The position numbers were made by a program, and so were the translations under genes. DNA of 64,000 nt from an uncultured Acholeplasmatales bacterium (GTDB taxonomy: Bacteria > Bacillota_I > Bacilli_A > Acholeplasmatales > Anaeroplasmataceae), in the NCBI GenBank assembly GCA_944324795.1, contig CALUXR010000001.1, positions 62,001-126,000 of the forward strand, given 5' to 3'. Below the pieces are notes generated by a model, which worked only from the letters and a program-made list of their open reading frames with translations, did not search any database and was not told where the DNA came from. This document shows, one piece after another, positions 4,894 through 35,576 of the stretch. The first letter of the stretch is position 1. Each line of letters begins with the position of its first letter.

Positions 4894-4896
4894 AAA

Positions 4897-5760: not shown

Positions 5761-5793
5761 AACTTAAAATCTCCTTAATATTTTTGATGCCTA

Positions 5794-5822
5794 ATTATAG
5801 CATAAATATTTTAAACAAGCAA
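5794..5822 (-). promoter_or_regulatory. Sigma-A-type promoter of degV
   Basis: TTGCTT (5817-5822), a 17-base spacer and TATAAT (5794-5799), with TG one base before the -10 (extended -10). It sits 35-60 bases before the degV ATG. Confidence 0.75.
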
Positions 5823-5825
5823 TTT

Positions 5826-7220: not shown

Positions 7221-7232
7221 CCCCTCTATTTT

Positions 7233-12559: not shown

Positions 12560-15500
12560 TTATTTTTTACGGTTTTTTACAATTAAACCAATAGTTAATG
12601 GATCTTCTTGCCATCTTGCATATAGAATTAAATTTTCATTTGGCATTGTAGTAATATGTGCCGGATGTTTAAATTCAGAATCTAAATACCAACCAACAAA
12701 ACGATAACCTAGCCGTTGTGGTTTTGGTAATGATACTTTTTCATCCTTCTTATATTTTAATTCTCTTATTTTTACATCACCTTTAGAGATGAATCTAATT
12801 CTAAATCTTCTATTCTTTATTAGAAGAACTATTAAGAATTGTAATAAGATGAAGGCAACAACACCAAGTAATACCCATAACCATGTCCAATCAACAATCT
12901 TATCAGTAATAATGATACCATAATAACTGAAATGAGTTGTATTAAATGTGATTGTACCATCTTCACTATTTGAATCAAATAATGTATAGCCACTTATATC
13001 ATCTTTAATATTTACGATTGAAAATCTTTCATTACCTTTTAATTCTTCATTTGGTAATGTTAAGGCAATTCTTACTTGTCCTTCAGGTTGAATTGTATTA
13101 CCATTTGCGTCTACTAATTTAATATTATAAAGACGGCTTATTCTACCAAATTCAGTTAATAATTCATTTGAACTATTAATAATATTAGAATCAGTAACTA
13201 ATTCAATAATAATTCTTGTATCAGCTTGCAAGCCTTTACCATCGATTGAAGTCACAACTACATCAACTAATTCACCATTGATATTAGCACTTAATTTAAC
13301 TTCTGTTATCTTATATAATGCAATAATATTTAAATCACTTATTACAGGTGAATTGAAATCATAAATACTAATACCATCTAAATACCAATTATCAAAGATA
13401 TAACCTTCTTTTTGTGGGGTCGTAATAGGTTTAATCTTTTGACCATATGATACCTCGATACTACTAATTAAATTAGTTGTATCACCATTATAGAAGTTAA
13501 TATTAAATTTATGAACTTCATATTTTGCATATAATCTAATAACATTATTAATATTATTTTCAATCAATGCTGTATCAATAACATCAATCTTATCACTATT
13601 AAAGTTACTATCTAAATACCATCCAATAAATGTATAACCAGCTTTAGTAGGGTTATAAAGCTCAATAGTTTTACCATTAGCAACATCAAAGGCTGTTAAA
13701 TTAGTAATATTCTTATCACTATTTACACCACCATTTGTTTCATAAACAATATTATAATTTGTAACTTCAGTATAAGCATATAATACTAAATCATTAGTGA
13801 AATCATATATTGTATTATTATTAACAATTACTTTATCATCACCATCTAAATAATACCAATAATGGAATGTTATACCAAATTCTGCTTTAGGAATAGGTAA
13901 TTTATCACCAAATTTAGAATTATAACTAATCATAACATCATTAAATGTTTGACCTTCAATATAACTATCTTTTGTATTAAATGATATCTTATATTCATTT
14001 GGTATAAACTTAGCATATAATACTAAATCTTTACTATAGTCTTTTGTAGAATCAATCTTAATCTTGTATTCATTATCAAGATACCAGCCAACAAATTTAT
14101 AACCAACTTTAGTAGGATTATTAAATTCTACTATTTCTTCTACATTATAACTATTAGGATTATTAGAATTATTAATACCACCATCTAAACTATAACTAAT
14201 ATTATAATTAATTAAAGTCCAAATAGCACTACCTGTATAATCACCAACTAAACCAGCAGTATTAAATCTAGCAACACCATCAATATTCCAACCACCAAAT
14301 AGATAGCCAGCATTTTCTAATATTGGTAATTGTTCTACTTTTTCTACGCTATATTTAATTTCCTTATCTCCTAAAATTAATGTATAAGTAATAAGTTCAA
14401 ATTTAGCATATAATACTAAATCTTTACTATAGTCTTTTGTAGAAGTAATCTTAATATTATAACCACTATCAAGATACCAGCCAACAAATGTATAACCAAC
14501 TTTAGTAGGATTATTAAATTCTACAATGTTTTCTACGTTATAATTATTAGGGTTGTTAGAATTATTAATACCACCATCTAAACTATAATTGATATTATAA
14601 GTTATAGTTTCATATTTAGCGGTTAAGTTAATATCACCAATTAATTCTTTTGTTTCAGTAATAATATTATTGTTTTCATCAACAAAGCCGATAAATTTAT
14701 AACCATCTTTAGTTGGATTTGGTAATATTTGATTAACTTCAACATTATATTTAACTTCACTAATACCACTACCTCCATCTAAATCTAGAGATATAGTATA
14801 AGTTTCAACTGCAAATTTAGCATATAATACTAGATTTGTTGTATAATCTTGTGTTGATTTAATTTCAGTTTCAAAATTACTATCTAAATACCAACCAATA
14901 AATTTATAACCATCTTTACTTGCACTAGCAAATTCTACAGATTCTTCTACATTATAATTATTAGGGTTAGTTTGATTATTTGCTCCACCATATAATACAT
15001 AGGTAATATTATATGTAATAGGGGTCCATATAGCACTAACTGTAACATTATTTGTTAGACTAGAAGTATTACTAATAATTTCATGTCCTAATGACCAACC
15101 ACCAAATACGTAACCATCTTTAGTTAGAATTGGTAAATCTTTAACTTCTAAAACATTAAATTCTAATTTATCTAAATTATCACAATTAGTAAATGTTACA
15201 TAATAAGTAATAGGTGTATATACAGCAGTTAATTTAATATCTCTTGCCGGTAATTCTGTAGAATCAGTTATTGCAATATCATTTAATAACCAATGACTAA
15301 ATTCATAATTATCTTTTGTAGGGTTATTAATTTTATCTAATAAGCCACTTAAATCAGTTTCTACATAGATGAATGTTTGTGGATTACCACTTGCCTTACC
15401 ACCAGCTAAATCATAATAAATATTATAAACATGTTTTTCCCAATTTGCAGTTAAGGTAATAGTTTCAGATTTATCAGTTAAATTAATAACATTTTCTAAA

Positions 15501-18500
15501 TCAGAATAAATATTTCCATTATATGACCAATATGCAAAATCATAACCAACATAACTAAATTTATTAGCATTTAATTGTGCTAGTTTGTCATAAGTCATTT
15601 CTTGATCATCCATACTACCACTACCACCATTAGATGCAAATGAAACAATGTAAGTAATAGCTTTCCATTTAGCATAAACAGTAATATTATTTGTATAAAT
15701 ATAAGTATCTTCTACTTCATCTTCTAGATCAATATCAGTATACCAACCATTAAAATTATAACCAACTTTTGTAGGATTAGTTAAATTTATATCTTCACCA
15801 TAATTAATATTAATAGATTCAAGATAATTACCACCTAAAGTATTATAAGTAATTGTATATTGATTTACTTCCCATCTAGCAACAAAATTAATTGAACCAC
15901 TTGTAGCTAAATTAATTAATGTATAACCATTATGATAAATATTATTATTAAATGACCAACCAGCAAATGTATAACCATCTTTAGTAGGGATATTATGATT
16001 TAATACATAAGGATTATCATATGTTAAAGTAATAGTCTCATTAACTTCTTCATCAACTACAAAATTAATACTATAAGTATTTCTAGTCCAATTGGCAACA
16101 AGTGTTACAACATCATTATCTGTAGTTGTTAATTTAGATATTTTATCACTAGCTTTATAAGTTTCATCATTATATGACCAACCAGCAAATGTATAACCAA
16201 TTCTTATAGGTAAACCTAATTCAATTTTTTCATTATAAGTAACATTAATATCATTAAATTTTCCACTACCACCAGCTAAATCAAATTTAATTATATAATT
16301 AATTTCACGCCAATTTGCAGTTAATTTAATAACTTCATTATTATTAGAAGTTAAATTAATTTCTTCTTCTCCTACATTATAAGTTTTACCATTTTCATCA
16401 TACCAGTTTAGAAGTACATAACCAGTCTTATTAAATGGTGTATTTAAATTTTGAGGATCATCATATGTAAATGTTTGTTCAGAACTATCTTCACCATCAA
16501 CAAATTGAACTTTATAGGTATTAGCTTTCCATATAGCTTTAAATGTTATAGTACCATTTAAGATAAACTTATCATTATTTTTATCAATAATATAACCTTC
16601 ACTATCAACAAAATATTCATTACCATTAGCTTCAAATTTTAATAATGTATAACCTGTACGAGTAGGATAATCTACATGAATATTTGAACCATTTGGAACA
16701 TCAGCCATTGGATCTATTTGATTTCCACCATTCATATCAAAGTATACATTATAGGTATCTTCAACAAATTTAGCATATAAAGTAACATTATTTGTATCAA
16801 GATATGGCATACCTGTAATTACTTGTTGATCATTTTCTTTAAACCAACCAATAAATACATAACCTATACTTGAAATATTTGGTAATAATTCATCAGTATA
16901 ACTTGAACCATATTTTAGTGTCTTATCTTCAATTTCAGCTACATTATATTTAGAATCTATTTTATAACTAATTGTATATTCATGAGCATTAAATTTAGCA
17001 TATAAAATTAAATTAGATGCTGTAGTACCTTTAATATAATTAAATTCATTATTTAATGTTTCATCATACCAACCAACAAAATCATAACCAGTTAATGTAG
17101 GTGTAGGTAGATTAATATTTTCACATTCAACATTATAAGTTATATCATATGATTCACCTATATTAGCTCCATTTAAGACATAAGTTATATTATAAGTGAT
17201 AATGCTATAATTTGCAGTTAAGATAATAATATCATTATCGGTTTCAGTTAAATTAAATAATATATCACCTAATCTATATTGTTTACCATTTTTATCTAAC
17301 CAATATAAGAAATTATAACCAACTTTTGATGGATTTGTTATATTAATTTGATAATATTCATCATATGTTAAATTGATAGTTGAAATATTATCATTGCCAT
17401 CTACAAATTTTACTTTATAGCTTATAGGTTTATAACTTGCTTTAAATTCTATAATATCATCATTAATATCAGTTAAATTAACTATATCATCATCATTATT
17501 ATAAGTATTTCCGTTATATAACCAACCAACAAATTCATAACCAGTCTTTGTAGGTCCTTCTACATTTAATGTTGCAGTTTGGCCATAATTTAAATTAATA
17601 TCAGCAATATCATTAACAACATTACCACCATCTAAATTAAATGTAATAGTATATGTGTTTACTTGCCATATTGCATATAATCTGATTTCTTCATTTGTTG
17701 TAGATGCTAAATTACCAACTACTTCTAAATCATTATATAAAGCTGTAGTAGCTTCTTTATTAGTATTCCAGCCAATAAATGTATAACCAGTTTTTGTAAA
17801 TGCATTAGCATTTAACGCTTCATATTCATCATATGTAAATGGTTGTTCAGCCATAGAACCACTACCACTATTTGCATCAAATATAATAGTGAATTCTCTT
17901 TCTTCCCAAATAGCATATAATATAATTTCAGCATTATTTATAGAACTTAAATTATTAACTTCATGCTTGTCTGAATATTTAACATCACCATTTACTTCAG
18001 TTGCCCAACCAATAAATTCATAACCAGTCTTTGTAAATGTATTAGCATTTAACGCTTTAGCTACATCATATGTAAATACTTGATTTGCCATATTACCTAT
18101 ACCACCATTATTATTATAAATAATAGTATATGTATTAGCTTGCCATACAGCTTTTAAGTTGACTGTTTTATCATTAGTTATAGTAAGTTTACTTAATTTA
18201 GTACCAACTTCATAAGTGTTTTTTCCATCTGTCCAACCAATAAATGTATAACCTTCTTTAGAAATTGTTGGAACATTTACTTCTTGAGTATATTTAATTC
18301 CATTAATTGAATTACCGCTATCTTCAAAATAAATATTATATGTAATTTCTTGCCATATTGCATATAAAGTTATATCAGATGTTGCAGTTAAATCTTCATT
18401 ATAAACATTTGTATATGTAGCATCTTTATCATTTTTATCTTCTGACCAACCAAGGAACATATAACCTGTTCTTTGATATGTATTAGAAGGTAAATCAACT

Positions 18501-21500
18501 TTATTAGCATAATCAAATGTTATAGGATTTATACTACCTAAAGTAGCACCATTACCATCGAATGTTATTCTATATTGATTTGCTTTCCAAACTGCATATA
18601 ATGTAACTTCATCATTATTTACATTTGTTAAATTAATTAAGGTTGCATTTGCAGCAAAATCTGGAGTTGTAGCATTACTATCTAATGCCCAACCAAGGAA
18701 TGTATAGCCAACTTTAGTTGGTTCTTTACCATTTAACACTTCTTTTTTATCATATGTTGCAGGAATATTATCAAATGTTCCTTCACCACCAACTAAATCA
18801 AACTTAATAGTATACGTATTTGGTCTATTATAAGCGTATAAATTTAGTTGACCGTATTGAGTTGTAGCAAAATCATATTTATTTTCTGTTTCACCTTGAA
18901 TATACCAACCATCAATTTGATAACCTTCTTTTTGATATTGATTTAATTCAAATACACCTAAATATACTCCATCACTTTCCATATCACTTAAATCATATGA
19001 ATCATTTGTGATATTTTGAACTGTATAATAAGCTTTAAATTCATTATCAACATATAAATTAACAATCATTTCTGAAGAAACATAAGATACTGTGATTGTA
19101 ACATTTTCATTTGGGAAAATATTATAATTATAATCTTCTAAACTTGAGCTATATTCACCTAATTTATAAGTTATACCATCTATTTCTAAAGTTGTTAAAT
19201 TAGTTGAAATTAAAGATTTAATATTAATTTCTTTATTATAAACATCTTTAATTATTATAGTTAAATTAGATGTATTAATAGTTGTTGATATTTGAGTTTC
19301 AGAAATATTAACATATGAATAACTTGCTAAAGCTGTATTTAATTCTCTAATTATAGAAGCTACATGAACTTGTGGGATATTATTAATATTTAAAGTAACA
19401 GTTATTTCTTTAATTTCATATTTAGCTACTAAAGTAATACTATTATCTTCAGCATATCTAGCTATATCTTCTTTATTAGTTATTTCAATATTATTGTAAT
19501 ACCAGCCAATAAATGTATAACCTTCTTTAGATGCATCATTTAATACAAAATCATCATCATAAGTAAATGAATCATCATTATTATGAGAACCACCATCTAC
19601 ATTATATATAATATTATATGTATTAGCTTGCCAATTTGCAGTTAATGTAATATTACCAGTAGAACCTTTAGATATTGTATATTCCATATTTGGTGTAGTA
19701 ACACTACCATCTGTCCAACCAATAAATGTATAGCCTATTCTTGTAGGTTCATTTATTATAATATCATTTGATTCAATATTATAAGATATAGGATTATCAT
19801 TAGTTCCATCAAATATATTTTCATAATTAATTTGATATTCAATAGGTTTCCAATTTGCAACTACAATTATATTTATAGCTAAACCTATTGTTGAAGTTAT
19901 AGGATTACCTTCATATGTCCAGCCAGTAAATTCATAACCAGCTCTTGTAGGATCTTTAAATATAACATTATTAACTACGCTATATTTATCAGCATTACCA
20001 CTATTGTTAATACCACCATTTATTTTATATGTAATGTTGTATTCAACTGCTTCCCATCTAGCAACAACAACAATATCTTGTTTATAACTATATGTACTAT
20101 CTTTTGTAATTTGAACATTACCATAATACCAACCAACAAAGCGATAATTATCTCTTGTAGGTACTGCTAAATCGCCTATTACATTTTGATATGTTACATT
20201 TTTAATATTAGATGTTAATTCATTGCCACCATTTACATCATATGTAATTTGATAATTATTAGGTGTCCAAGTTGCAGTTAATGTAATATCACCTATTGTA
20301 CCTGTATTAATTACATAATTCATATTAGCAGTTGCATCAGTACTATCTTTCCAACCAGCAAATGTATAACCAGGTCTTGTAGGGTTAATGATTGTAATAT
20401 TAGGACTTTCAATTGTATAAGTATTTGGATTATTACCAACATTAATTGCTGGATCAATTGAATCATCATTTAAATTATAATTAATATTATATTCAATTAG
20501 ATTCCATTTAGCAGTTAATGTAATATCCCCTGTTGTACCTTTTGTTATTTCAGTTATAGGTTCTCCATTAACATCTAACCAACAAACAAAGGTATAACCA
20601 GGCTTTTCATCTACTTCTGTAGGTAATGTGATGCTATCATTTACATTATAAATATTATTGAAGTCTCCTGTAGCTCCATTATACTGAATATTATAAGTTA
20701 TAATATCCCATTTAGCATATAATGTAATTTCAATTGATTCTTCTGCAAATAAAGTGATTTCACTAGCATCTCCATATACTACATCTCCATTTACTTCAGT
20801 TGCCCAACCAACAAATTCATAACCAAGTCTTCTAAACATATTTTCATTTAATTGTGTAGCTTTACTAGATTTAACTATTTGATCTTCCATATTACCAGTA
20901 ACAGAATTATCGCTAACTCCATCATCAAATTTAATAATTATATCTTTTAATTCAAATCTAGCATATAAAGTTAATGGACCAGTAATTTCTTTACTTGTTT
21001 CATTTCCAAAGAAGTCTTGTTCTTCATCACTTACAAACCAACCAACAAATTCATAGTTAAGATCACTTGTTTTTTCATAATCAACAATATCAGATTTCTT
21101 TAAGATAAATCGGTCATTTTCATCTTTTAATACGTTTATTGAATCTGGTGTGGTTGTATCAACAACTTGATTAATAGTTACAACATAACCACCAATTTCA
21201 TAAGATGCATCATATGTTTTATTAGTTATAGTATTTTCTACATTTTGCCATTCATTAAAGATATAAATCACATCATTAACTTCATAGCTATCATCAAAAT
21301 AATCGCTATTTAATAGGCTATTTAATATTGAGTTTAAATCAGTATTATAATCTGTTGTTATTATAATAGTTAAGATAATATTATTATTTGAAACATTATT
21401 TGTTGTTTCAACACTATAATCATTTAATTGTTCTTTAATATAACTATCAATTTTATCTAATTCATCAACATTTACAATATTAGAAATAGTTAATGTTGTC

Positions 21501-24500: not shown

Positions 24501-27500
24501 TTAGTAGGAACATTTAAGTTTACTTCTTTATCATAAATAACATCAATTGATTTAGCTTCACTATTTTCATCATCTTTAACAATTATATTATATGTTTCAG
24601 CTTCCCAATCAATCGTAAAGACTGTTGCATCTTGAATAGTAATTTCAGAATCATTTGTTAATTGATTTGTACCATCTGTCCATATGCCATCAACATAACC
24701 AGGTCTCTCTGGATGTTGTAATGAATTTTCATCTAATTCAGCATAAATATCTTTATATGTTGTTCCATATGGATATGATAAAGGTTTAGATATGTTAGTA
24801 GCTTTATCATAGAATAAAACTGTATAAGATATTGGTTTATATTTAGCATATAATACAACTTCATTATTGTCATTAATATGATCTAATAAGTCTGTAACAT
24901 CAATATATTCATTATAAATAGTTGCTGATTCATCTTCTAAATCAAATACCCAACCAACAAAATTATAATTATCTTTTTCTACTGATTTTATTTCTACCAT
25001 TTGATCTTCACAAGTAAATGTACGACCATCTTCAGTATAACCATCATTATTATAATTAATTTTATATTCTATTGCTTCATATATTAAATATACATCAATG
25101 AATCCTTTTTCTAATGCAGCATCATCAAATAAGTTAATAACTTCACTAAATATATATTCACTTAATGGAGTATTACTTGTTCTATTTGGTGAAATACCTA
25201 AGAAATTATAATGTTGTTTAACAGTTATACTATTATCAAAATTAATTACTGTAGCATCATTATTTGGATCATATTTAAATGGATAAGATTTTTCAAAAAT
25301 ATTATTATCTAAATTATTACCAATAATATTAACTTTAAATTCTTTTTCAGTTGTTGTAATAGTAATAGTTGCTGTAATGCCATCTTCATTTTTAACTATA
25401 CTATTAGGATATTCATTTACAAATTCTGCTAAGTTTGGCATTTTATTATTTTTAAAGAAATCAGTAAATAATGTATTATCAATTTTTAAAACTATTTCAT
25501 AATATTTATAATTATAAACTAAATTACTTAGATCATTAATAGTTGGAATATAAGTAATTTCTGAATCATATTGATAAGAATTGCTCTCACCAATTTGTTC
25601 TTCTTCATATTCAAACTTAATGAAATATTTTACAGCTGTATAAATAGCATCTATATCATAATTTTGGGTAACTTCAAGATTATCTACATTTGTACCATTA
25701 ATTTCATAATGGTCGATTGTAAATCCAGGAACACTTAGTTTAGCACTGTTATTTTCAATAAATCTAGTTATTGCTTCTTTTATTGTTTCTCCATGATAAG
25801 CTTCTACTTCTACAATATCATCTTTTATAGGTGTATTTATTTGTACTTGTATTGTATAAACCTTCTTTGAAATTTTTGCTGTTATGGTAGTTGCTTTACT
25901 AAATTCAATAGTTAAAATTTCTGAGCCATTATAACGTTGCCCATTATAAGTCCATTCATTATTAAATTCATAGCCTTCAAAACTTAAATCATTATATGTT
26001 TGAATCTTATAATATGTGCCATCTTCTTGCTTCAATGCCACAAATTGAATTGTTTTTTCAATTGAATTATCTAAATATATGTTACCACTAATAATAATAT
26101 AATCAGTTTTATTAGCATAATCTACATCAACACTAAGTTCATTAGCTGGCATTGTATTAAAGCTATAAGAATTTTCATCTATATAATAAATCAGTAATTG
26201 TCCATTAATAGTTATATTATTTAAACTATTTAAATTTGTATTATATGGAATAGATAAACTATTTCCACTCCATGATAAACTTAAATTATTATCAATAGCT
26301 TCTAGTATATCATTTCTAATTTCATCAACATTCTCTAAAGATAAAGAGCCAAAATTAAATGTTAAAGTATAACTTTTTATTTGCCATTTTGCCTCAAGGA
26401 CGACACTCTTTGTAACAGTATATTGACCTGTCAAGTTTTCTATAGTTGCGGTGGTAGATAAATCATCCCATCCTAAAAAATTATAACCATCTCTTGTTAT
26501 AGAATAATTGTCTAAATTAATAGTTTGATCATATCTTAAATTTTCAATAGTATTATTATAACCAACACTTGTTAAAGTTATAGTATAATTTTCCGCATCC
26601 CATTGAGCGACAAATGTAGCATTACTACTTAATTGCGTAATTGTAGAAATTGTTGCATCTGTTGCTGCATATGTTCTAAATTTATTACCTGGATTTATCG
26701 GATTTATAGGTAAATTATTATTAGCAGTATCGTAATAATTAACTAAAATTACATATTTTTCAAGTGTTGTTCCTTCATTTGGTTCAGTGACTTTATTACC
26801 ATTATTATCTAAATACCAAGATTTACCAGGTATTACATCATCTTTATTAAATTCATAATAACCATTACCAGCGTCAAAAGTTATTTCAATTTGTATTATA
26901 TTAAGTTCTATACTAATAACAGCTTCTCTATTTTCTCCTAATTTTTCTAAGAATTCATTATCAATTATTGTTATAGGATTATTATTATATGTTGCGCAAC
27001 CATATGTATAACCAACTATTTTGAAATCCTCATTAGATAAATCAACATCACCACTATTATATGTTACGCTTATTTCGCTATTAGAAATACTACCATTCCA
27101 ATAATATTTAGCGTTATATTTAAATATAATATTATATCTAGCAGGAGTCCAATGACCTTGTAAAACTATTTTTTCTTTTTTAACGTCTCCATCAGTTGGA
27201 ATAAAAGTTGAATTATTAACTAATGGTTGATCATTATAAACCCAATATGCAAAATCATAACCATTAATATTATATATAGGTAAATTTGCTGTATTAATAA
27301 TTTCAGAATAACTTAATTGATAATTTCCTAAAGATGTAATAGGATTGCCTTCATTATCTTTAAATTCTATATTATAAACTTTAGGTTCTAATACTAATCT
27401 AATTGCTGTATATCCATTAATTGTAATAGTTTCAGGGTTTTTCTCTACGCCATCATAAAGAATATTATTAGCAACACTAATAGTAAACTGTTTATTATTA

Positions 27501-30500
27501 AATAAATATCCTGATGGAATAGTAAAATTATATGTTTCTAAATATGTTTTTAAGTCGCTTATAGTTATAATATTATTTTTACACCAAGAACTTATGTCAG
27601 GAGAACTTGAAGTAAAGTCGGCAATATAATTATTTAAGCTATCATATATTGCAATAGTATAATCTGTTGTGCTCCAAATAAATGTTACTTTTAAATTTAA
27701 ATCAGTTGGATTGTTAGTATTTATTCTTACATTATATATACTAAAATTACCATTTGCATAAGTTGCGTCATAATTAGAAAAGTGATATTGACCTAATGTA
27801 TTTTTTTCTTCTAATTGTTCTCTAATTTTAATTAATATTTCTTCAATTGAAGAACCATATTTTGCTTTTAATGTCAATATTCCATTTCCATATGCTAATG
27901 ATGAATCTAATGTAGCATATGTTTCATCAAATGTAAGGTTATTTAAGTTTCCTGCATCAATAGTAATATCATAGGTTGTAACATTATATACAGCATAAAC
28001 TGTTAAGTTATGTTCTGGCATAGTTCGTGGTTTTTCTGATTCTAAATTTGTTCTATCAGGATATATACCAACAAAATTATATCCTTCTGGGCTATTAATT
28101 ATATTTATATAATTATCCTTAACCCATAACCAAGAAATATCAGCTCCATATTTTACACCTGTAGCTGTATATAAACCATTAATTACGCTAAATTTATAAC
28201 CTCCAATTGTTACATCTATATTGTTAAATGATGCATTTGCTCCTAAATCAATAATTAAATTTGATTCTTTAGGTACAACATGACATACTAATGTAATTGT
28301 ATCTAATCCTTCTACACCTAATTTATTGATAACTTCACTAATATTTTGAACTACTTCTCCTTCATAAGTCCAATATTGATAATTATAGCCTATAGAAGTA
28401 GGTATATATAGGTCAAATGCGCTATTAATATTATATGTAACATTTTGAGATTGACTAAATAAACTGCTATCTAACGAATTTTTGTCATCATCATCATTTA
28501 TGTCATCATCATCATTTATGTCATCATCATCATTTACAAATTCATAAATAATACCTTTTTCTTTTACAGCACAATTAAGTGTAAAATCTAATGCCATTAA
28601 TGAATCTAGATGAATCTCTGCTTTTGTTTCTCCGTTTAAAGATAAGGTTAAAGTATATCCACCTGTTGAATTAACATTTATTTCTAAACAATCAGCATCA
28701 TAAGTAACACCATTTAAGAATATTTGCCAACTTACAAATTCGTAAGCATTGTTAATCACAATCTTTGGTAAATCTATTTTTCTACCATTTTCAGCATCAA
28801 CGATATTATATTTAAAATTAGAATCACCATCTAATGAAACATCGCCATTTGCATATTTTTGTAAACCTGTTAAAGTAATATTATAATCATTAGGAGACCA
28901 TTTTAAATATAATGTGATATCTTCTGATGATATAACTCCATCAAACTTTTCAGTGAAATTAGGATCTCTATACCAACCATCAAAATGATAAGATTCATAT
29001 GTTAATTCTGATGCTAAACTATCTAAGTCTAATTCTTTATATCTATAATTGACAAAATTTAATTCAGCTTGATAAATGCCATTAACCAAACTAAATACAG
29101 CACCATCAGATGTTGTCATATTAGGGCTTTCAATAGTATTACCATTACCTAAATTTAAAGAAATGATTACAGTTGTACTCTCTTCAATAGGTTTATCAAC
29201 ATTGTCAACGAGTTTAACAGCTTCTTTTGATAAAAGGTGTACTGTTTCATTTTTTGAAGTTATTACTTTTTGAGATATTTGACTTTTTTCTTCAGCAAAA
29301 CTATTAAACTGAGGATAATAATAATAATTATCATCATCATATGAATTCCAAATCCATCTAGAATCAAAGAATGTAGAATCTAAACCACGCGGTCTTGTAT
29401 TTCCTGTTTGACAAATTAAATAAGATGAAGATAATTTTCTACCATTATTATTATTTTTTTCAAATCCTAAAGATACACTCGCATTTTCATCACCTATTAC
29501 TTGAATAGTTGAATCAGTTTTACCATTATATTGTAAATCAGCATTAGCTATAGACGTATTATTAATATTAGCAGCTACACCCATACCAACTAAGCCACCT
29601 AGGAATGCATGTTTTTCAGTTAAATAATCTAATGTTCCTTTAGCTGTAACTTCACCAACATTTATAGCATAACTTAAATCTGAATAGGCAAAGATACCTA
29701 CAACACCACCAACATGTGTCCAACCTTCTACTTTACCGGTGTTAATAACATTGTTAACAGTTTTATTACCACCATCAAATTGATCGTTAGTATTTTCTTT
29801 TATTGATGTAACACCAAGGATACCACCAACGCCTCTACCACCAACAGTTGGATTATTAGTATTATAACTAAATACTACATTATCTTGATTTTCTTGATAT
29901 GTTCCTCGCCATGTAGCAGAAATATTACCATCATTCATCACTGTATCTAATGTAGAAGCACCAAACATTCTACCAACGATACCACCAACATAAGCATTAA
30001 CTTGATATTTTGTTATAGAAGAAGTTCCATTAACACTATATTGATATTTAGCACCTAAACCTGCAGTTGCAGTAACATTACCAATATTAAATGCTGTATT
30101 TATAACACTATCACTTCTTGTATTGTCATCTAATGACATCATAGTACCAACAATACCACCAACGCCAAATTTAGCAGTAATACTACCACTATTATATGCT
30201 TCATTTATTATAGCATGCCATGTTTGACCAACTACACCACCAGCTCTACTACCTTCATAAGCATATAATTTTTCACTTTCAGTCCATGAACTGCCATATG
30301 GAACATTTGTTCTATCACCATTATAATAAACACTACCCATATTTAATACATCAGTTATTGAACCATTTGCATATCTACTTGATTCAATATAATAGGTACC
30401 AATCACACCACCAGCATTAACACCAGTAAATTCAACATTAGCCTTATTAGTCAAAGTTTTATAAGTTCCACCATAAGCAAGACCAATAATACCACCAACA

Positions 30501-33500
30501 GAAATATTACCTTTAACATTTCCACTTACTGTTAAATTACTAATATTTGCATCTTTTGTATAACCAAATAAACCAACAAAATTTTTATCAGAAATATTAT
30601 CATCTATTGTCAAGTCTACTGTCTTATTATTACCATCAAAGATACCACTAAATGGAGTATTATTTGTATTTGCTACTATTGAAGCAAAATCTATATTGCT
30701 ATTTGTACTAACCGATACATTTGCATGCAGATCACCAATTACTATATTTGTAACATTGATATTGTCTTTCATTAAGATAAAATAATAATTTGCATAATCA
30801 TTAGCCTTATAAACTAAATTACGATTTTCATCTATTCCGTTATAATAATGATATTTATTTTCAAATATTCCATCTTCTATGCCACTTACGGTTTCAGCAA
30901 GAACTTTTAATCCATCTTCATCATATATTGCAAATGGCATGTCTTGATTAGTACCAATATCGCTAATATCATTATTAGATGAGAAAATATTTCCCCATTG
31001 TGCTTCTAGTGTAAATTCAGTATTACTACTATTACCTTGTAAAGCAATAATTGTTTCATCGTCTAATAGTTGGCCATTTTCCCAATAAATATCAGTGCCA
31101 GAAACTTTCCAATTTTTAAAATAGAAACCAACTGCATAAAATTGATTATCTGGAAGATATGTATTATTCAACAATTCTGTAAAATCAACTTTAAATTCGC
31201 CAAAGTCATCATTTGCTTTATTAGCAGTTGTTAATCCACCATTATCAAATATAAATGTAAATTTTAATGCTCCCCACTGAACACATAAATTAATTTCATT
31301 AGTTTTATCAGAGAATGAGCTTGAGTCTATATCAGCAGTAGTTGAATGTGTTTTAGAATAAACTTTATTTTGTCCATTTATAGAATAATTAATAAAATTT
31401 TTTACTTCATAACCTGATCTTTGAGCATATTTTAATAATGAACTTAAAGCAAGATTTTGATCAGATTCTAATCGTAAAACAAGTGTTTTATCACCAGTAT
31501 GATACTCTACAGGATAATGTAATCCTAACTCATTTTTAATATTAACTAAATCTGTTGAAGTATATACATCTGTTAATGTTTCAAATTTATTTCCATCATA
31601 ATTAGTAGCAAATGTTAAATTAATTTTTAAAATCATATTGATGATTAATGAATTATTTCTAGTTTCTTGTTTAAAACTATCATTTTTATAATCACTACCT
31701 TCTATAGCATTTGCCAAATTAAAGTATTTAGTATAACCTAATTCTTCCGGATCATTATTAGCATTATATGTCGGAGTATAGATTATAGATGTATTTCTTC
31801 TATAAAAAATATCATGAACATAAACTTGAATTTTATTAACTATATCACCAGAATAATTATTAGCAGTAATTCGACCACCATTATAAGTTATATAACCAAT
31901 GCTTTTTGCATTATTTAAATTTAAAGTACCTGTAGATACAGTAATATCTATGTTTTCATCCTCTAGATTTCTATTATCTTGAATAATAGCTTTACTTTCA
32001 ATATTAATTGTTGATGAAACATCATTTACATAAATAGCACCATAATGACCAATATTTCCTGTAATAGTTCCTTTAATTATAGTTTCTGATTCAGCAGAAA
32101 TATTGATTGCTCCTGCTGTACCAGTAGAATAGTTATTTCTTAATGTTGCATCGTCTTCTAAAATGAATGTTCCTCTATTATTAACAAACATATAGCCATT
32201 AGAAGATGAGCTATTACCATCAAAAATTATATTTTCTAAAGTTAAAATGCTACCAGCTTCAATAGTCATAATAGCATCTAAATTATCTGTATTAGATATA
32301 TTATTAGCTAATGATAGGGCCAACCTATCATTACCACTAGAAGAAATTGTAATAGATTTATTACCAGTAACTCTAAATAAATCATTAGAATCTAAAGCTA
32401 CAGGACGTATTAGATAAATTGTATCTCCATCTTTTGCCGCATTTACCGCTTCACTTAGATTATTGTATTGATTTTCTGGGATGTTCTCATTTATATATGC
32501 AATATAGTTATTATTTGATGTTACTTTTAAAGTATTACCATCTGCTATTAAATAATAAGTTGAATTATCTAATAAAAATTTTTCTGATTGAACAGAATTA
32601 TTAAATTTAACTACAGGTGCAGAATATTGATAATAACTCCCCCCACTTGTAACACTATAATCTTCACTATAAGCTATTAAACCAACAATACCAGTAGCGG
32701 TAAGTTCACCAGTGACCTCAATTGGAGTTTGAGCATTACTTTTAGTAATATTAGCAAAAACAATATTATTTGATGTATCAACTTGAATACCACCAGACAT
32801 TTTAATCATAGATGCAGATCCTGTACCAGCATAATTATAACAATATATACCATAACCGTTTTCAGGTTTATTCCCTATTGTTTTATTATTAGATATCGTA
32901 CCACCCTCAAGTGTTAAAATACAACGATTGTCTCTACCATATGAAACATTACTGATACCACCACCATAAATGGCTGAATTATTTTTGATTTCAACATCCT
33001 TGACTATTAATGATTGGTTCCACTGAGACTGTTGAGTTCCAACAGAAACCCCACCACCGTATCCAGTTTGTCTCTTCCCTGGGTTTGCTGGTGAAAATGC
33101 ACTATTATCTAATACTTGTGCTTTATCATTTCCATTTGCCTCCAATGTAATAGATGACGAGTTTGAACCAGCATTAGAAGAAATTCCACCACCATAAGTA
33201 GATCTATTTCCTTGAACTATACCACCACTTATTTCGACTTGTGATTCCCAAACACAAATACCGCCACCATAACCATATGCAAAATTATAAGAAACTTCTC
33301 CTCTTTTTATGTTTAAATCCGAATTATTTCTAACCATAATTCCAGCACCATCTGCAGAAAATGATAAAGAACCATGATTATACCCTACTATACCACCATA
33401 CATATTAAACGTAGAAGTCTCCACTAGAGATACCCCGGCACCATCTGCAGAAGCATTCTCATTTTCAAATGTAGCTTCATGTGAATCATCTATTGTGTTA

Positions 33501-35053
33501 TAACCACCTATTTTGCTCTCTTTCTTCATATATTTTATAGTTGTACCAGAATAGTTAGTATTATAGTTTACATTACCATAATACATATCTATATCAGCAT
33601 AAATTGCTGATATTCCAGCACCCCCACCACTATTTGCCACATTTGCCATCGAATTATAAAGTATAGAAGCTCCTGCAATAGATAGTTTTGCTTTATTAGT
33701 ATTATCATTTCCCTTTAAGCCAATAGCGCCACCTAAATGTTCTTTTGAACTATGAGTAGTATTATCACTAATATTATTTGAATACGGGAATTCGTCGAAC
33801 CAACCACCACTATCAGGATCATTATTTTTCTTAAATTTATAAAAAATGTTATTATTATTTTGTAATACTACCCCTCGATATATTGATAAATTAGAGTTTG
33901 CTTGAGCCCTAATTAATGGATATTCTGATTTTATACCATTAGCATCATAACTTCCTCTACCGTATGTTTCTATTTCATTAGCGCTTAAATCCATTCTAGC
34001 TTGATATGCAGCAGTAACAAAGTTATATGTATCGCCACCAACAGGTGTATTACTTTTAACCCATTTTGCGCCACCATCAATTATTAACATATTAGAGCCT
34101 GATGAATAAAATTTATTATCTTCATTTTCTTCTTCATCTGTATCTACTATTTCTACTCCACCTAAAGATAGATTATTATTAGATGGAACTATTATTGAAT
34201 GCCCATTAGCATTAATAATTGTATCGTGTAAAGGTACAACATATACATTACCATTAATTTCTATGTCACTTGTTAAAGTTATATCATTTGAAGAATTTAA
34301 AATATAATATCCTGAAGACGTAGGGAAAGTAGTGGTTATAGATGCATTAGTTTTTTTGCCTAATGTAACTTTTTCACTTTCAATACCAGAATAAATATAA
34401 AGCCCATCACCATTGATTAATCTTGATATATTTCCAGAGGTATGTAATAAAGCAGCATCATTGTTAATTACAAATAGTGTTGAATCAATACCTACTATAT
34501 TGCCACCAATTAGATTCAACGAACCATTTACAGTCGTATTACCAATAAATGTAGTATCTAAAATTGCATTTTCACGAATATTCATACTATCATTGATGAC
34601 AAGACTTGAATAAAAAGAACTATTAAGATTTGTTGTCTCAGCTTTTATTTCTCCTTTTAAATCAACATTTAAATCAAAAGATAAAGAAGATTGTGGTTCA
34701 AGTATTATTTTTCCTAATTCTAATACTGTTAATTCATAGCCTAAATTTGTTTTACCTATTTCAAACGGGGCAGTTTCAGATTTCAGAACAATACTCTGGC
34801 CACTTGAAATATAAATAGTATTAGATATGTCAGTGTCACTAGATAATTCAATCGTAGTTGTAGTTTCATAATCACTAGGAGCATTATTGATTGCTGTTAT
34901 TAATTCACTACTATTAGCGACCAATTCTACTTTTGATGAATTGTCATCATTTTCATTTTCTATTTTTGGTGTAAATACATTATTAATAGCAAACGCTAAA
35001 ATAACTACTCCAATCAATAAAGTTAAAAAGACTAAAATACTCTTCTTTTTCAT
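12560..35053 (-). CDS. Giant surface protein: beta-helix, GLUG-type repeats and about 60 Listeria-Bacteroides (InlB) B-repeats
   Basis: 7497 residues in one unbroken frame, start ATG with AGGAGG nine bases ahead. Residues 5-27 are a signal peptide or N-terminal helix. About 40-1000 is parallel beta-helix-like, with GGG-rich turns (YGGGICVWESQVEISGGIVQ). About 1440-1800 has GLUG-like turns (GGVVGIFAYSDLSYAINVGE). From about 1950 to 7250 come roughly 60 B-repeats with the core GYTFxGW...LYAxW. They are interrupted by three copies of an unrelated module (near 3875, 4515 and 5215). An Asp-rich spot (about 2170-2190) is encoded by an 18-bp tandem repeat. A membrane-proximal domain (about 7250-7387, ending TFNTTHFSYYGIII) precedes a helix (about 7388-7412), a basic KNRRFRIRF, and one more B-repeat predicted in the cytoplasm. 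There is no LPXTG. Such repeats are usual in adhesins; binding partners are unknown. Confidence 0.9.
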   Translation of the reverse strand: MKKKSILVFLTLLIGVVILAFAINNVFTPKIENENDDNSSKVELVANSSELITAINNAPSDYETTTTIELSSDTDISNTIYISSGQSIVLKSETAPFEIGKTNLGYELTVLELGKIILEPQSSLSFDLNVDLKGEIKAETTNLNSSFYSSLVINDSMNIRENAILDTTFIGNTTVNGSLNLIGGNIVGIDSTLFVINNDAALLHTSGNISRLINGDGLYIYSGIESEKVTLGKKTNASITTTFPTSSGYYILNSSNDITLTSDIEINGNVYVVPLHDTIINANGHSIIVPSNNNLSLGGVEIVDTDEEENEDNKFYSSGSNMLIIDGGAKWVKSNTPVGGDTYNFVTAAYQARMDLSANEIETYGRGSYDANGIKSEYPLIRAQANSNLSIYRGVVLQNNNNIFYKFKKNNDPDSGGWFDEFPYSNNISDNTTHSSKEHLGGAIGLKGNDNTNKAKLSIAGASILYNSMANVANSGGGAGISAIYADIDMYYGNVNYNTNYSGTTIKYMKKESKIGGYNTIDDSHEATFENENASADGAGVSLVETSTFNMYGGIVGYNHGSLSFSADGAGIMVRNNSDLNIKRGEVSYNFAYGYGGGICVWESQVEISGGIVQGNRSTYGGGISSNAGSNSSSITLEANGNDKAQVLDNSAFSPANPGKRQTGYGGGVSVGTQQSQWNQSLIVKDVEIKNNSAIYGGGISNVSYGRDNRCILTLEGGTISNNKTIGNKPENGYGIYCYNYAGTGSASMIKMSGGIQVDTSNNIVFANITKSNAQTPIEVTGELTATGIVGLIAYSEDYSVTSGGSYYQYSAPVVKFNNSVQSEKFLLDNSTYYLIADGNTLKVTSNNNYIAYINENIPENQYNNLSEAVNAAKDGDTIYLIRPVALDSNDLFRVTGNKSITISSSGNDRLALSLANNISNTDNLDAIMTIEAGSILTLENIIFDGNSSSSNGYMFVNNRGTFILEDDATLRNNYSTGTAGAINISAESETIIKGTITGNIGHYGAIYVNDVSSTINIESKAIIQDNRNLEDENIDITVSTGTLNLNNAKSIGYITYNGGRITANNYSGDIVNKIQVYVHDIFYRRNTSIIYTPTYNANNDPEELGYTKYFNLANAIEGSDYKNDSFKQETRNNSLIINMILKINLTFATNYDGNKFETLTDVYTSTDLVNIKNELGLHYPVEYHTGDKTLVLRLESDQNLALSSLLKYAQRSGYEVKNFINYSINGQNKVYSKTHSTTADIDSSSFSDKTNEINLCVQWGALKFTFIFDNGGLTTANKANDDFGEFKVDFTELLNNTYLPDNQFYAVGFYFKNWKVSGTDIYWENGQLLDDETIIALQGNSSNTEFTLEAQWGNIFSSNNDISDIGTNQDMPFAIYDEDGLKVLAETVSGIEDGIFENKYHYYNGIDENRNLVYKANDYANYYFILMKDNINVTNIVIGDLHANVSVSTNSNIDFASIVANTNNTPFSGIFDGNNKTVDLTIDDNISDKNFVGLFGYTKDANISNLTVSGNVKGNISVGGIIGLAYGGTYKTLTNKANVEFTGVNAGGVIGTYYIESSRYANGSITDVLNMGSVYYNGDRTNVPYGSSWTESEKLYAYEGSRAGGVVGQTWHAIINEAYNSGSITAKFGVGGIVGTMMSLDDNTRSDSVINTAFNIGNVTATAGLGAKYQYSVNGTSSITKYQVNAYVGGIVGRMFGASTLDTVMNDGNISATWRGTYQENQDNVVFSYNTNNPTVGGRGVGGILGVTSIKENTNDQFDGGNKTVNNVINTGKVEGWTHVGGVVGIFAYSDLSYAINVGEVTAKGTLDYLTEKHAFLGGLVGMGVAANINNTSIANADLQYNGKTDSTIQVIGDENASVSLGFEKNNNNGRKLSSSYLICQTGNTRPRGLDSTFFDSRWIWNSYDDDNYYYYPQFNSFAEEKSQISQKVITSKNETVHLLSKEAVKLVDNVDKPIEESTTVIISLNLGNGNTIESPNMTTSDGAVFSLVNGIYQAELNFVNYRYKELDLDSLASELTYESYHFDGWYRDPNFTEKFDGVISSEDITLYLKWSPNDYNITLTGLQKYANGDVSLDGDSNFKYNIVDAENGRKIDLPKIVINNAYEFVSWQIFLNGVTYDADCLEINVNSTGGYTLTLSLNGETKAEIHLDSLMALDFTLNCAVKEKGIIYEFVNDDDDINDDDDINDDDDKNSLDSSLFSQSQNVTYNINSAFDLYIPTSIGYNYQYWTYEGEVVQNISEVINKLGVEGLDTITLVCHVVPKESNLIIDLGANASFNNIDVTIGGYKFSVINGLYTATGVKYGADISWLWVKDNYINIINSPEGYNFVGIYPDRTNLESEKPRTMPEHNLTVYAVYNVTTYDITIDAGNLNNLTFDETYATLDSSLAYGNGILTLKAKYGSSIEEILIKIREQLEEKNTLGQYHFSNYDATYANGNFSIYNVRINTNNPTDLNLKVTFIWSTTDYTIAIYDSLNNYIADFTSSSPDISSWCKNNIITISDLKTYLETYNFTIPSGYLFNNKQFTISVANNILYDGVEKNPETITINGYTAIRLVLEPKVYNIEFKDNEGNPITSLGNYQLSYSEIINTANLPIYNINGYDFAYWVYNDQPLVNNSTFIPTDGDVKKEKIVLQGHWTPARYNIIFKYNAKYYWNGSISNSEISVTYNSGDVDLSNEDFKIVGYTYGCATYNNNPITIIDNEFLEKLGENREAVISIELNIIQIEITFDAGNGYYEFNKDDVIPGKSWYLDNNGNKVTEPNEGTTLEKYVILVNYYDTANNNLPINPINPGNKFRTYAATDATISTITQLSSNATFVAQWDAENYTITLTSVGYNNTIENLRYDQTINLDNYSITRDGYNFLGWDDLSTTATIENLTGQYTVTKSVVLEAKWQIKSYTLTFNFGSLSLENVDEIRNDILEAIDNNLSLSWSGNSLSIPYNTNLNSLNNITINGQLLIYYIDENSYSFNTMPANELSVDVDYANKTDYIIISGNIYLDNSIEKTIQFVALKQEDGTYYKIQTYNDLSFEGYEFNNEWTYNGQRYNGSEILTIEFSKATTITAKISKKVYTIQVQINTPIKDDIVEVEAYHGETIKEAITRFIENNSAKLSVPGFTIDHYEINGTNVDNLEVTQNYDIDAIYTAVKYFIKFEYEEEQIGESNSYQYDSEITYIPTINDLSNLVYNYKYYEIVLKIDNTLFTDFFKNNKMPNLAEFVNEYPNSIVKNEDGITATITITTTEKEFKVNIIGNNLDNNIFEKSYPFKYDPNNDATVINFDNSITVKQHYNFLGISPNRTSNTPLSEYIFSEVINLFDDAALEKGFIDVYLIYEAIEYKINYNNDGYTEDGRTFTCEDQMVEIKSVEKDNYNFVGWVFDLEDESATIYNEYIDVTDLLDHINDNNEVVLYAKYKPISYTVLFYDKATNISKPLSYPYGTTYKDIYAELDENSLQHPERPGYVDGIWTDGTNQLTNDSEITIQDATVFTIDWEAETYNIIVKDDENSEAKSIDVIYDKEVNLNVPTKEGYTFIGWYSGDELIVPANGSLASWNIDLSNVTNYTIIGQWEPNEYNIIYNGNGATSGLMENDGATYGSEVTLTTNTFIREGYEFKGWATSVDGEISYTDEQVFAYNMPNDLELYAVWEPISYNLRFSFDSNDNLDNNLLPTELTIEYDEPFTMPTIDNLPKGYRLIGWVIGDTTYNLNNVYSNLTANREPIILTAEFEYSYTIIFDTNGGTPSISSQEEIIDNNLNLIEYSGKKTGYTFAYWEYNGTEISNVDLTNNPGAEIIVKAHWTPITYNIKFDANPISGTTPTGEMANQEITYDVPTKLTENKFVIEGYTFIGWATEENGSVEYRDGEEVVNLRAQQAAIITLYAVWEKEDITLTIDVINIDPSQIRNVKTYLEEKFIGAEINNTENSITIIYQKQYGVSILDIVDIIKSLEYNYTINEKTYNLIKPNINDEIITTPLNYTLQFSEGEFALTINVVHIVNSKVIVDKVITYPITVEDGSYTINKEDLMAEVNNLSLTGYTLNKEKWYIDDSCTNEYDFNDNLEEPTLYVKFEPINYTVSFNKNNQNATGSMESQDFIYDELKTISNNQFSLEGYTFIGWATEENGSVEYRDGEEVVNLTSTFNETVTLYAVWELNVYEVKVYLDSTSTDYLTLYYEHGTNIFVLDNIYTKVGYTFVNWLNKDDDKEFTETTITANISLYANWEEITYSITYIGATIDKNYATSYTINTENILPTTETATINGYIVKGWTLKEGSNEHFTYIKGSTIGNLVLYAILEPIEYSIILDKNENNIYDEETDNKINNVLYGSSGDKFYGLIKDITLPNNAQEVFKGWADNTGKLITNESVFAYTNLKNNQLFLYPVFENNAYSITIMVDGGIISTINNVPYNTNIVDAIKDIVSPTKDYYQFSGWLLDGTLITESSLMPAQNIILNAQFTTIQYKLTITSELNNPVIIDDFNIEYSIEDLKEKLILTGYNLVSLTNNDIILSTIEDIIELADSNKEITISANYEISKIETTLTISNIVNVDELDKIDSYIKEQLNDYSVETTNNVSNNNIILTIIITTDYNTDLNSILNSLLNSDYFDDSYEVNDVIYIFNEWQNVENTITNKTYDASYEIGGYVVTINQVVDTTTPDSINVLKDENDRFILKKSDIVDYEKTSDLNYEFVGWFVSDEEQDFFGNETSKEITGPLTLYARFELKDIIIKFDDGVSDNSVTGNMEDQIVKSSKATQLNENMFRRLGYEFVGWATEVNGDVVYGDASEITLFAEESIEITLYAKWDIITYNIQYNGATGDFNNIYNVNDSITLPTEVDEKPGYTFVCWLDVNGEPITEITKGTTGDITLTAKWNLIEYNINYNLNDDSIDPAINVGNNPNTYTIESPNITIINPTRPGYTFAGWKDSTDATANMNYVINTGTIGDITLTATWTPNNYQITYDVNGGNELTSNIKNVTYQNVIGDLAVPTRDNYRFVGWYYGNVQITKDSTYSYKQDIVVVARWEAVEYNITYKINGGINNSGNADKYSVVNNVIFKDPTRAGYEFTGWTYEGNPITSTIGLAINIIVVANWKPIEYQINYENIFDGTNDNPISYNIESNDIIINEPTRIGYTFIGWTDGSVTTPNMEYTISKGSTGNITLTANWQANTYNIIYNVDGGSHNNDDSFTYDDDFVLNDASKEGYTFIGWYYNNIEITNKEDIARYAEDNSITLVAKYEIKEITVTLNINNIPQVHVASIIRELNTALASYSYVNISETQISTTINTSNLTIIIKDVYNKEINIKSLISTNLTTLEIDGITYKLGEYSSSLEDYNYNIFPNENVTITVSYVSSEMIVNLYVDNEFKAYYTVQNITNDSYDLSDMESDGVYLGVFELNQYQKEGYQIDGWYIQGETENKYDFATTQYGQLNLYAYNRPNTYTIKFDLVGGEGTFDNIPATYDKKEVLNGKEPTKVGYTFLGWALDSNATTPDFAANATLINLTNVNNDEVTLYAVWKANQYRITFDGNGATLGSINPITFDYANKVDLPSNTYQRTGYMFLGWSEDKNDKDATYTNVYNEDLTATSDITLYAIWQEITYNIYFEDSGNSINGIKYTQEVNVPTISKEGYTFIGWTDGKNTYEVGTKLSKLTITNDKTVNLKAVWQANTYTIIYNNNGGIGNMANQVFTYDVAKALNANTFTKTGYEFIGWATEVNGDVKYSDKHEVNNLSSINNAEIILYAIWEEREFTIIFDANSGSGSMAEQPFTYDEYEALNANAFTKTGYTFIGWNTNKEATTALYNDLEVVGNLASTTNEEIRLYAIWQVNTYTITFNLDGGNVVNDIADINLNYGQTATLNVEGPTKTGYEFVGWLYNGNTYNNDDDIVNLTDINDDIIEFKASYKPISYKVKFVDGNDNISTINLTYDEYYQINITNPSKVGYNFLYWLDKNGKQYRLGDILFNLTETDNDIIILTANYSIITYNITYVLNGANIGESYDITYNVECENINLPTPTLTGYDFVGWYDETLNNEFNYIKGTTASNLILYAKFNAHEYTISYKIDSKYNVAEIEDKTLKYGSSYTDELLPNISSIGYVFIGWFKENDQQVITGMPYLDTNNVTLYAKFVEDTYNVYFDMNGGNQIDPMADVPNGSNIHVDYPTRTGYTLLKFEANGNEYFVDSEGYIIDKNNDKFILNGTITFKAIWKANTYKVQFVDGEDSSEQTFTYDDPQNLNTPFNKTGYVLLNWYDENGKTYNVGEEEINLTSNNNEVIKLTANWREINYIIKFDLAGGSGKFNDINVTYNEKIELGLPIRIGYTFAGWSYNDETYKASDKISKLTTTDNDVVTLVANWTRNTYSINFVVDEEVNETITLTYDNPYVLNHNIPTKDGYTFAGWSFNNNIYHNGYTLINLATSGSINFVARWEVNQYTITYNTLGGNYLESININYGEDINLTNPTKVGYNFNGWYTDIDLEDEVEDTYIYTNNITVYAKWKAITYIVSFASNGGSGSMDDQEMTYDKLAQLNANKFSYVGYDFAYWSYNGNIYSDLENVINLTDKSETITLTANWEKHVYNIYYDLAGGKASGNPQTFIYVETDLSGLLDKINNPTKDNYEFSHWLLNDIAITDSTELPARDIKLTAVYTPITYYVTFTNCDNLDKLEFNVLEVKDLPILTKDGYVFGGWSLGHEIISNTSSLTNNVTVSAIWTPITYNITYVLYGGANNQTNPNNYNVEESVEFASASKDGYKFIGWYLDSNFETEIKSTQDYTTNLVLYAKFAVETYTISLDLDGGSGISEVKYNVEVNQILPNPTKDGYKFIGFVDENNNIITETKELIGDINLTAKYETITYNINYSLDGGINNSNNPNNYNVENIVEFNNPTKVGYTFVGWYLDSGYNIKITSTKDYSKDLVLYAKFELITYTLILGDKEIKYSVEKVEQLPILENAGYLFGGWNIDGVARFNTAGLVGDYTGSAIWTLINYNISYSLDGGINNSNNPNSYNVEEIVEFNNPTKVGYKFVGWYLDNEYKIKIDSTKDYSKDLVLYAKFIPNEYKISFNTKDSYIEGQTFNDVMISYNSKFGDKLPIPKAEFGITFHYWYYLDGDDKVIVNNNTIYDFTNDLVLYAYTEVTNYNIVYETNGGVNSDKNITNLTAFDVANGKTIELYNPTKAGYTFIGWYLDSNFNSDKIDVIDTALIENNINNVIRLYAKYEVHKFNINFYNGDTTNLISSIEVSYGQKIKPITTPQKEGYIFDNWYLDGISIYDFNSPVISDLNIIALYKITEVKLSANINGELVDVVVTSIDGKGLQADTRIIIELVTDSNIINSSNELLTEFGRISRLYNIKLVDANGNTIQPEGQVRIALTLPNEELKGNERFSIVNIKDDISGYTLFDSNSEDGTITFNTTHFSYYGIIITDKIVDWTWLWVLLGVVAFILLQFLIVLLIKNRRFRIRFISKGDVKIRELKYKKDEKVSLPKPQRLGYRFVGWYLDSEFKHPAHITTMPNENLILYARWQEDPLTIGLIVKNRKK
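14011..14560 (-). repeat. Recent internal duplication within the B-repeats
   Basis: The stretch beginning TAGCATATAATACTAAATCT at 14011 recurs at 14404, offset 393 bp (131 codons), with long nearly identical segments, including the part coding for LVLYAKF and the part coding for NNPTKVGY(K/T)FVGWYLD. The offset spans two repeat units, so units were copied as a pair. Confidence 0.7.
18822..23431 (-). repeat. Three copies of an unnamed ~185-residue composite module inside the giant protein
   Basis: Copies at 22883-23431, 20950-21508 and 18822-19411, about 2 kb apart. Each starts after a B-repeat with a strand-helix pattern (LTIDVINIDPSQI / LTISNIVNVDELDKI / LNINNIPQVHVASII). Each continues with a second strand and helix (SITIIYQKQYGVSI / ILTIIITTDYNTDL / NLTIIIKDVYNKEI), a strand (YTINEKTYNL / YEVNDVIYIF / LEIDGITYKL), and a beta-rich half, and ends in an atypical B-repeat. 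The copies are clearly related but diverged. Confidence 0.65.
22688..23563 (-). repeat. Identical ~81-bp segments 795 bp apart within the giant gene
   Basis: The segment at 22688-22768 recurs at 23483-23563, apparently without a mismatch. Both code for a B-repeat core containing GYTFIGWATEENGSVEYRDG and EEVVNL. The offset is 265 codons. Identity over this length in a low-constraint repeat suggests recent gene conversion or duplication. Confidence 0.75.
28483..28536 (-). repeat. 18-bp tandem repeat x3 coding for an Asp-rich linker
   Basis: Three perfect head-to-tail copies of TGTCATCATCATCATTTA (plus-strand reading), coding for DDDDIN-type hexapeptides between a beta-rich segment and a B-repeat of the giant protein. 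Copy-number change would keep the frame. Confidence 0.9.
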
Positions 35054-35123
35054 AATTTAAATCCTCCTATACCAGTTATATTTAAAATTTATTAAAATTA
35101 TAAATTTTGTTAAAAAAGCAGTT

Positions 35124-35141
35124 CGTAATCTATAGATTACG
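35124..35141. promoter_or_regulatory. Perfect palindrome CGTAATCTATAGATTACG in the giant gene's leader
   Basis: An 18-bp uninterrupted palindrome starting about 9 bases downstream of the predicted transcription start. On the coding strand it is followed by AACTGCTTTTTT. It could be an operator for a dimeric regulator, or as RNA a 7-bp hairpin near a short U-run. The sequence alone does not decide. Confidence 0.6.
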
Positions 35142-35156
35142 CACTAGTTCATCATT

Positions 35157-35185
35157 ATTATAAATAAAAACGTTTTTTCTAACAA
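35157..35185 (-). promoter_or_regulatory. Sigma-A-type promoter of the giant surface protein gene
   Basis: TTGTTA (35180-35185), a 17-base spacer and TATAAT (35157-35162). The predicted start near 35150 gives a leader of about 97 bases. Confidence 0.7.
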
Positions 35186-35507
35186 TAAAAGTAGAATATA
35201 AAAAAAACATTTTTCAGCGAATGTGCTATTTTTTTTTTTTTTGCTTTACATAAATTTAATTTTTATTTAATTTAAATTTACTATATTTTTAAATGAATTT
35301 ATTAATAATGGTGTTAAATAAATGTTTTTATGTTTAAAATTTTTTAAGTAAATGTAAATATAATTATAAATAAATTTTTTTACCGAATAAGTTTATTTTA
35401 ATCATTGTTTTTTCTATTTAATTTAAATTAATAAAATAAATTATTATATATATTTTAAAAAATGGCTCAACTAAAGGATAAAATATTATTTGATTATATT
35501 ATAAAAT

Positions 35508-35560
35508 AAAAAAGATGATTTCATTTTACCTAATTTAAAGGTAATAAATCATCTTTTAAT
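35508..35560 (-). terminator. Terminator of rpoBC
   Basis: Minus strand AAAGATGATTT pairs with AAATCATCTTT, with an inner TTACC/GGTAA pairing, followed by TTTATTTT. It closes the rpoB-rpoC unit. Confidence 0.85.
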
Positions 35561-35576
35561 TTTATTTAAATATTTA

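Follow-up and report, generated by a model that had tools for sequence, protein, structure and literature searches.

A 7,497-residue B-repeat protein with a predicted membrane anchor in an apparently wall-less Anaeroplasmataceae genus

The window analysed here, a stretch of 64,000 nucleotides from contig CALUXR010000001.1 of an uncultured Acholeplasmatales bacterium (27% GC), contains a single open reading frame of 22.5 kb encoding a giant surface protein of 7,497 amino acids (12560..35053, minus strand, as are all features of the gene and its flanks located below), with an ATG start and a TAA stop. A frame of this length in DNA of 25% GC cannot be open by chance, and full-length counterparts, all of them open frames in N-free stretches, were found in five congeners (G001, 5,993 aa; G002, 5,283 aa; G003, 6,585 aa; G005, 6,307 aa; G007, 6,316 aa), bearing out the original prediction of an intact frame. 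The host assembly comprises 51 contigs totalling 1.70 Mb and is 99.5% complete; as the gene takes up 1.3% of it, the description of the protein as a large investment also holds. Repeat number could be a product of a mis-assembled metagenome bin, given that the genomes are drafts and that one exact repeat reaches 81 bp, the longest in the gene; against this, the repeats are diverged and few long exact repeats occur (31 51-mers are present more than once), so that collapse or expansion is possible at a few spots only, and the same architecture was recovered from separate assemblies, which makes the artefact most improbable. Codon usage of the gene is near that of ordinary neighbours and farther from that of rpo/rpl genes, which gives no indication of recent import or of very high expression, and its tetranucleotide usage is unusual. 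The encoded chain is strongly acidic (980 acidic versus 480 basic residues) and has only 15 cysteines, which begin at residue 600.

The comparison within the genus covered eight genomes, the host (G000) and seven congeners (G001–G007), and some match to the C-terminus of the giant protein was present in all eight, while no comparable C-terminal match was detected outside the genus among 160 genomes of the order. The gene directly follows rpoC (35577..39341 in the window) in G000, G001, G002, G003 and G007. In G005, rpoC lies elsewhere and the giant gene stands between ABC exporter genes, on the one hand, and nfo with a TPR gene, on the other; in G004, rpoC, the TPR gene, nfo and the ABC pair stand in one row with no giant gene between them. 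In the RpoC tree, G004 branches deepest within the genus (support 92), so the distribution is explained either by a single gain after G004 had branched off or by loss in G004. G006 yielded neither a full-length counterpart nor a detectable rpoC, so this region is probably not assembled there, and we rejected it as a case of true absence. The intergenic region that separates the giant gene from rpoC (35054..35576) contains a terminator-like hairpin and T-run after rpoC, seen by eye here and likewise in four relatives; a consensus scan did not call the hairpin in the window; these hairpins suggest that the giant gene has its own promoter and forms a separate transcription unit, and co-transcription with rpoBC was judged unlikely.

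Downstream, a pair of ABC exporter half-transporter genes (7233..10776) occurs in every genome with the giant gene in the rpoC slot except G007, where the contig ends shortly after. No other conserved partner gene was found, and a functional link with the ABC pair was not accepted because the pair occupies the same locus in G004, which has no giant gene. The giant gene is adjoined by a gene for a 241-aa multi-helix membrane protein (11736..12461), as are its counterparts in G001 and G007. Elsewhere, the window encodes two lipoprotein-like proteins, one of 907 aa (646-3369) that combines a pectate-lyase domain (PF00544) with a Cadherin-like match and one of 567 aa (55845-57548) in which a GLUG motif exceeds the cut-off. 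It also encodes a P-type ATPase-like protein (50253-54116) that is extended at its N-terminus by a long charged stretch and has an additional domain ahead of its last helix. Among the congeners, G001 carries a very large lipoprotein-like protein of 4160 aa (L191, G001:C16), and a 932-aa lipoprotein region is near-identical between G006 (L145) and G007 (L146), which points to very close species or to shared DNA.

Hydropathy analysis predicted a Sec signal peptide at residues ~1-24 (34982..35053), with a hydrophobic stretch at 5-23 and an AFA cleavage-like site but without a lipobox cysteine. Pfam scans of residues 1-1200 returned no family at significance. The AlphaFold model of residues 480-1679 nevertheless shows, in two places, the recurring short strands typical of a parallel β-helix, at residues ~540-800 (32654..33436) and ~876-1085 (31799..32428); both are locally modelled at pLDDT ~80-90, whereas the model as a whole has a pLDDT of 62 and a pTM of 0.37. 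The best PDB matches of this model in Foldseek were PL6 alginate lyases (E 1.2e-5, with a very low whole-chain TM-score), and pectate lyases were also matched by domain 1, so that the β-helix head proposed originally gained support from both the strand pattern and the fold search. At 11–14% sequence identity, the likeness to PL6 and pectate lyases is claimed for the fold and not for enzyme activity. The proposed GLUG section could be recognised at residues ~1480-1900 (29354..30616), where its core (residues 1501-1750) is 47–63% identical in orthologues as against 20–51% for the head outside this core; however, four stretches matched PF07581 below the Pfam cut-off (E 0.61, 11.1 bits versus 20.5), and the section is accordingly called GLUG-like here.

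The remainder of the ectodomain consists largely of B-repeats. Pfam identified 42 matches to PF09479 at E<=1e-3 within the frame, beginning at about residue 2012 and exceeding 500 bits in each of two dense pieces; an HMM derived from the repeats of this very protein raised this to 52 repeats above 5 bits, the earliest at residue 1264, and 59 above 0 bits, so the figure of about 60 B-repeats put forward from the letters is right once divergent copies are counted. The repeats exceed the cut-off of PF09479 / TIGR02543, and the fold agrees: in the model of residues 7170-7497, the best PDB match was 2y5p, an InlB B-repeat structure (TM-score 0.79, target-normalised; rmsd 2.0), which was also matched by sequence through the B-repeat profile. 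The first repeat (residues 1264-1328; 31070..31264) is one-to-one orthologous in all relatives, divergent B-repeat-like modules follow at residues ~1997-3400 (24854..29065), the earliest of them in conserved order, and a dense tract at residues ~3407-7243 (13325..24835) is the main source of length differences between species.

Comparison of individual repeats showed that repeats 1-8 and 49-52 are closer to their orthologues than to paralogues, while 20 central repeats are closer to paralogues than to orthologues, and interspecies differences in length therefore arise mainly within the stalk. The central stalk repeats turn over while the ends of the protein are conserved. One could read this as neutral expansion, in which the B-repeats of a smaller adhesin multiply without benefit; the turnover of the centre, the spread in length from 5283 to 7497 aa and a recent in-register duplication (repeats 46 and 48, 87% identical; 14012..14605) are what such a process would leave behind. 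Yet no orthologue is shorter than 5283 aa, all frames have stayed open over deep divergence, and the first and last repeats still correspond one-to-one across orthologues, so that we regard purely neutral growth as unlikely. The strong selection claimed for the protein is thus supported for the frame and the ends, with five open orthologues, and not for the number or sequence of repeats: the repeat tract is mostly 25–45% identical where it can be aligned, with 13–87% gaps over residues 3000-7000. This pattern of conserved ends and a variable middle in six species amounts to a natural series of stalk lengths.

Between the stalk and the membrane lies a β-rich juxtamembrane domain (residues ~7255-7385; 12899..13291), which is 46–53% identical in G001, G002, G003 and G007 (31% in G005) and ends in THFSYY. 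Its model showed weak fold matches to ankyrin ZU5, GAIN and the NLRP1 FIIND, and ZU5 autopeptidases have been described in large bacterial surface proteins (PMC3482391). The ectodomain might accordingly be cut near the membrane, for instance by autoproteolysis at THF|SYY, and either form a secreted matrix or remain bound non-covalently, in the manner of GAIN- or SEA-type receptors. The HFS end is present in all six giants, and its His and Ser were invariant in an initial set of 10 domains; in a wider set of 34 domains, mostly from the class, Ser is kept in 33 and His in 22, and the absence of His from the other 12 points to a structural role of the motif more than to a catalytic one. Neither Pfam nor the PDB gave a sequence match of this domain to ZU5 or GAIN. 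ZU5-type autoproteolysis at HFS was accordingly ranked low, and a shed or secreted matrix protein is in our estimate quite improbable. The same juxtamembrane domain and transmembrane helix also occur in a 2372-aa surface protein (L141, G018), the inner part of which has an acidic linker and an L15-like domain in place of a B-repeat.

A single transmembrane helix is predicted by hydropathy and by the model at residues ~7390-7413 (core 7394-7412; 12815..12886). Apart from this helix and the signal peptide, the hydropathy scan of the protein revealed no segment above the threshold, and the orthologues as a group showed weak hydrophobic segments only, which are absent in three of the six proteins. 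The model of residues 7170-7497 (pLDDT 82) consists of a B-repeat, the juxtamembrane domain, a 24-residue helix and then a second repeat. This last B-repeat (residues 7416-7478) belongs to a basic tail (12563..12814) in which the transmembrane helix is followed directly by K/R-rich residues. Across the six giant proteins, the 231 repeats before the helix have mean net charges of −3.9 to −5.6 per protein, with a maximum of +1, and average about −5, whereas the six repeats after it carry +3 to +10. From this charge split, the signal peptide and hydropathy, the tail and with it the last B-repeat are predicted to lie on the cytoplasmic side. The 85 residues after the helix are among the best-conserved parts of the protein (61–73% identity in G001, G002, G003 and G007; 41% in G005), and the repeat itself is 42–71% identical to its orthologues as against 42% to its best paralogue; it stays out of the repeat turnover. 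A shallow literature search found no report of a cytoplasmic B-repeat, and the predicted intracellular copy departs, in a way that can be tested, from the extracellular location usual for this family.

Two other proteins show a comparable order. In G005, a 407-aa gene (L030:2935-4158 / L009), whose stop overlaps the start of the giant gene by 4 bp, encodes a short N-terminus, a transmembrane helix, a basic stretch, a tail-like B-repeat and an L15-like domain (PF00828, E 1.7e-11); its C-terminal part has relatives in G000, G003 and G004, transmembrane proteins that are encoded beside a PilB-like ATPase and lack the B-repeat. In the Clostridiales protein L075, a signal peptide and a transmembrane helix precede a B-repeat. 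A tree groups the tails, the 407-aa protein and L075, but with weak support (SH-aLRT 80-87), few columns and a composition bias, and is taken as a hint only. Two further candidates (L101 and L112) were rejected, as their charged start is probably cytoplasmic and the repeat then probably outside, and several apparent matches of helix plus repeat within the genus proved to be lipoproteins in which a signal peptide had aligned to the helix. As a tentative and, on balance, doubtful suggestion, these wall-less bacteria may have moved an extracellular repeat inside, where a basic B-repeat would link the giant ectodomain to a partner in the cytoplasm, for example the 407-aa protein of G005, an inner tether in place of a peptidoglycan anchor. 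At the loci L184 (G000:C28), L185 and L186, a PilB-like ATPase gene lies together with the gene for a protein with a transmembrane helix, an acidic linker and an L15-like domain; a type IV prepilin-like gene accompanies them in G000 and G004, and a PilC-like frame adjoins PilB in G003 and G004. A wall-less genus here carries a locus for a type IV pilus or pseudopilus.

Searches of all eight genus genomes found neither FtsW/RodA nor a PBP transpeptidase, and no genome reached the cut-off for MurA, where the weak matches are probably the related AroA; the host genome has no match to sortase (PF04203). Walled-bacteria controls were positive. The absence of these wall genes makes the lineage wall-less by gene content, in agreement with a published survey of these orders, which notes that some Anaeroplasmataceae retain wall genes (PMC10868615). 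With a transmembrane helix and an 85-aa tail at its C-terminus, and no PF04203 match in the genome, the giant protein does not have the features of a sortase-anchored wall protein. One protein of the host bin, beside a B-repeat protein, ends in a sortase-signal-like arrangement of NPQTGD, a transmembrane helix and KK (L149, G000:C40); this reflects either a contaminant contig or a missed sortase. In that survey, of 2024, the loss of sortase from related orders of Bacilli was taken to mean that surface proteins are probably less expressed (PMC10868615); at the genome level, the genus studied here presents the opposite, in that a very large membrane-anchored surface protein is kept without wall genes.

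Taken together, we consider it probable that the gene encodes a type-I membrane-anchored giant stalk of a wall-less bacterium, with an outward β-helix head, a spacer of variable length and an inner B-repeat for anchoring or coupling, a topology predicted from sequence. The signal peptide would direct the chain to export via Sec, and the two β-helix domains with the GLUG-like part would form a distal, ligand-facing head, probably binding glycan or neighbours; adhesion to glycan, mucus or other cells outside, or a coat function, would follow. Some 50 acidic B-repeat β-domains would act as a stalk holding the head off the membrane, with a reach, put originally at several hundred nanometres, of roughly 150-260 nm if each folded domain spans 3-5 nm, and the length of this stalk may drift through in-register duplication and loss. 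The juxtamembrane β-domain and the single helix would anchor the protein in place of sortase and peptidoglycan, and the basic inner B-repeat may hold the base through lipid head-groups or a protein partner.

The protein is thus composed of known repeat and fold families, while we could not match its arrangement (wall-less host, transmembrane anchor, conservation, inner repeat) to a described system. The closest relatives by repeat are InlB-type proteins carrying the Listeria-Bacteroides repeat, which belong to the same family by HMM and fold; in contrast to these, the giant protein has neither an LRR internalin domain (Pfam scans jointly covering the chain found no LRR family, and an NCBIfam internalin_H match fell far below the cut-off, within a B-repeat stretch) nor an LPXTG anchor, and has about 50 repeats, a transmembrane anchor and one repeat predicted to be cytoplasmic. 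Very large surface proteins of a wall-less bacterium are known from the gliding machinery of Mycoplasma mobile (Gli349 and Gli521); the likeness drawn here is in size and wall-less host, and motility is not implied. In a survey of huge proteins and giant genes, the giant genes are described as strain-specific (PMC11573180, citing Reva and Tummler 2008). With the giant surface proteins surveyed there, the present protein shares a length above 5000 aa, construction from repeats, a surface type and unusual tetranucleotide usage; unlike those strain-specific giant genes, it has persisted throughout most of a genus, in the majority of cases at a single locus, and its codon usage resembles that of ordinary neighbours.
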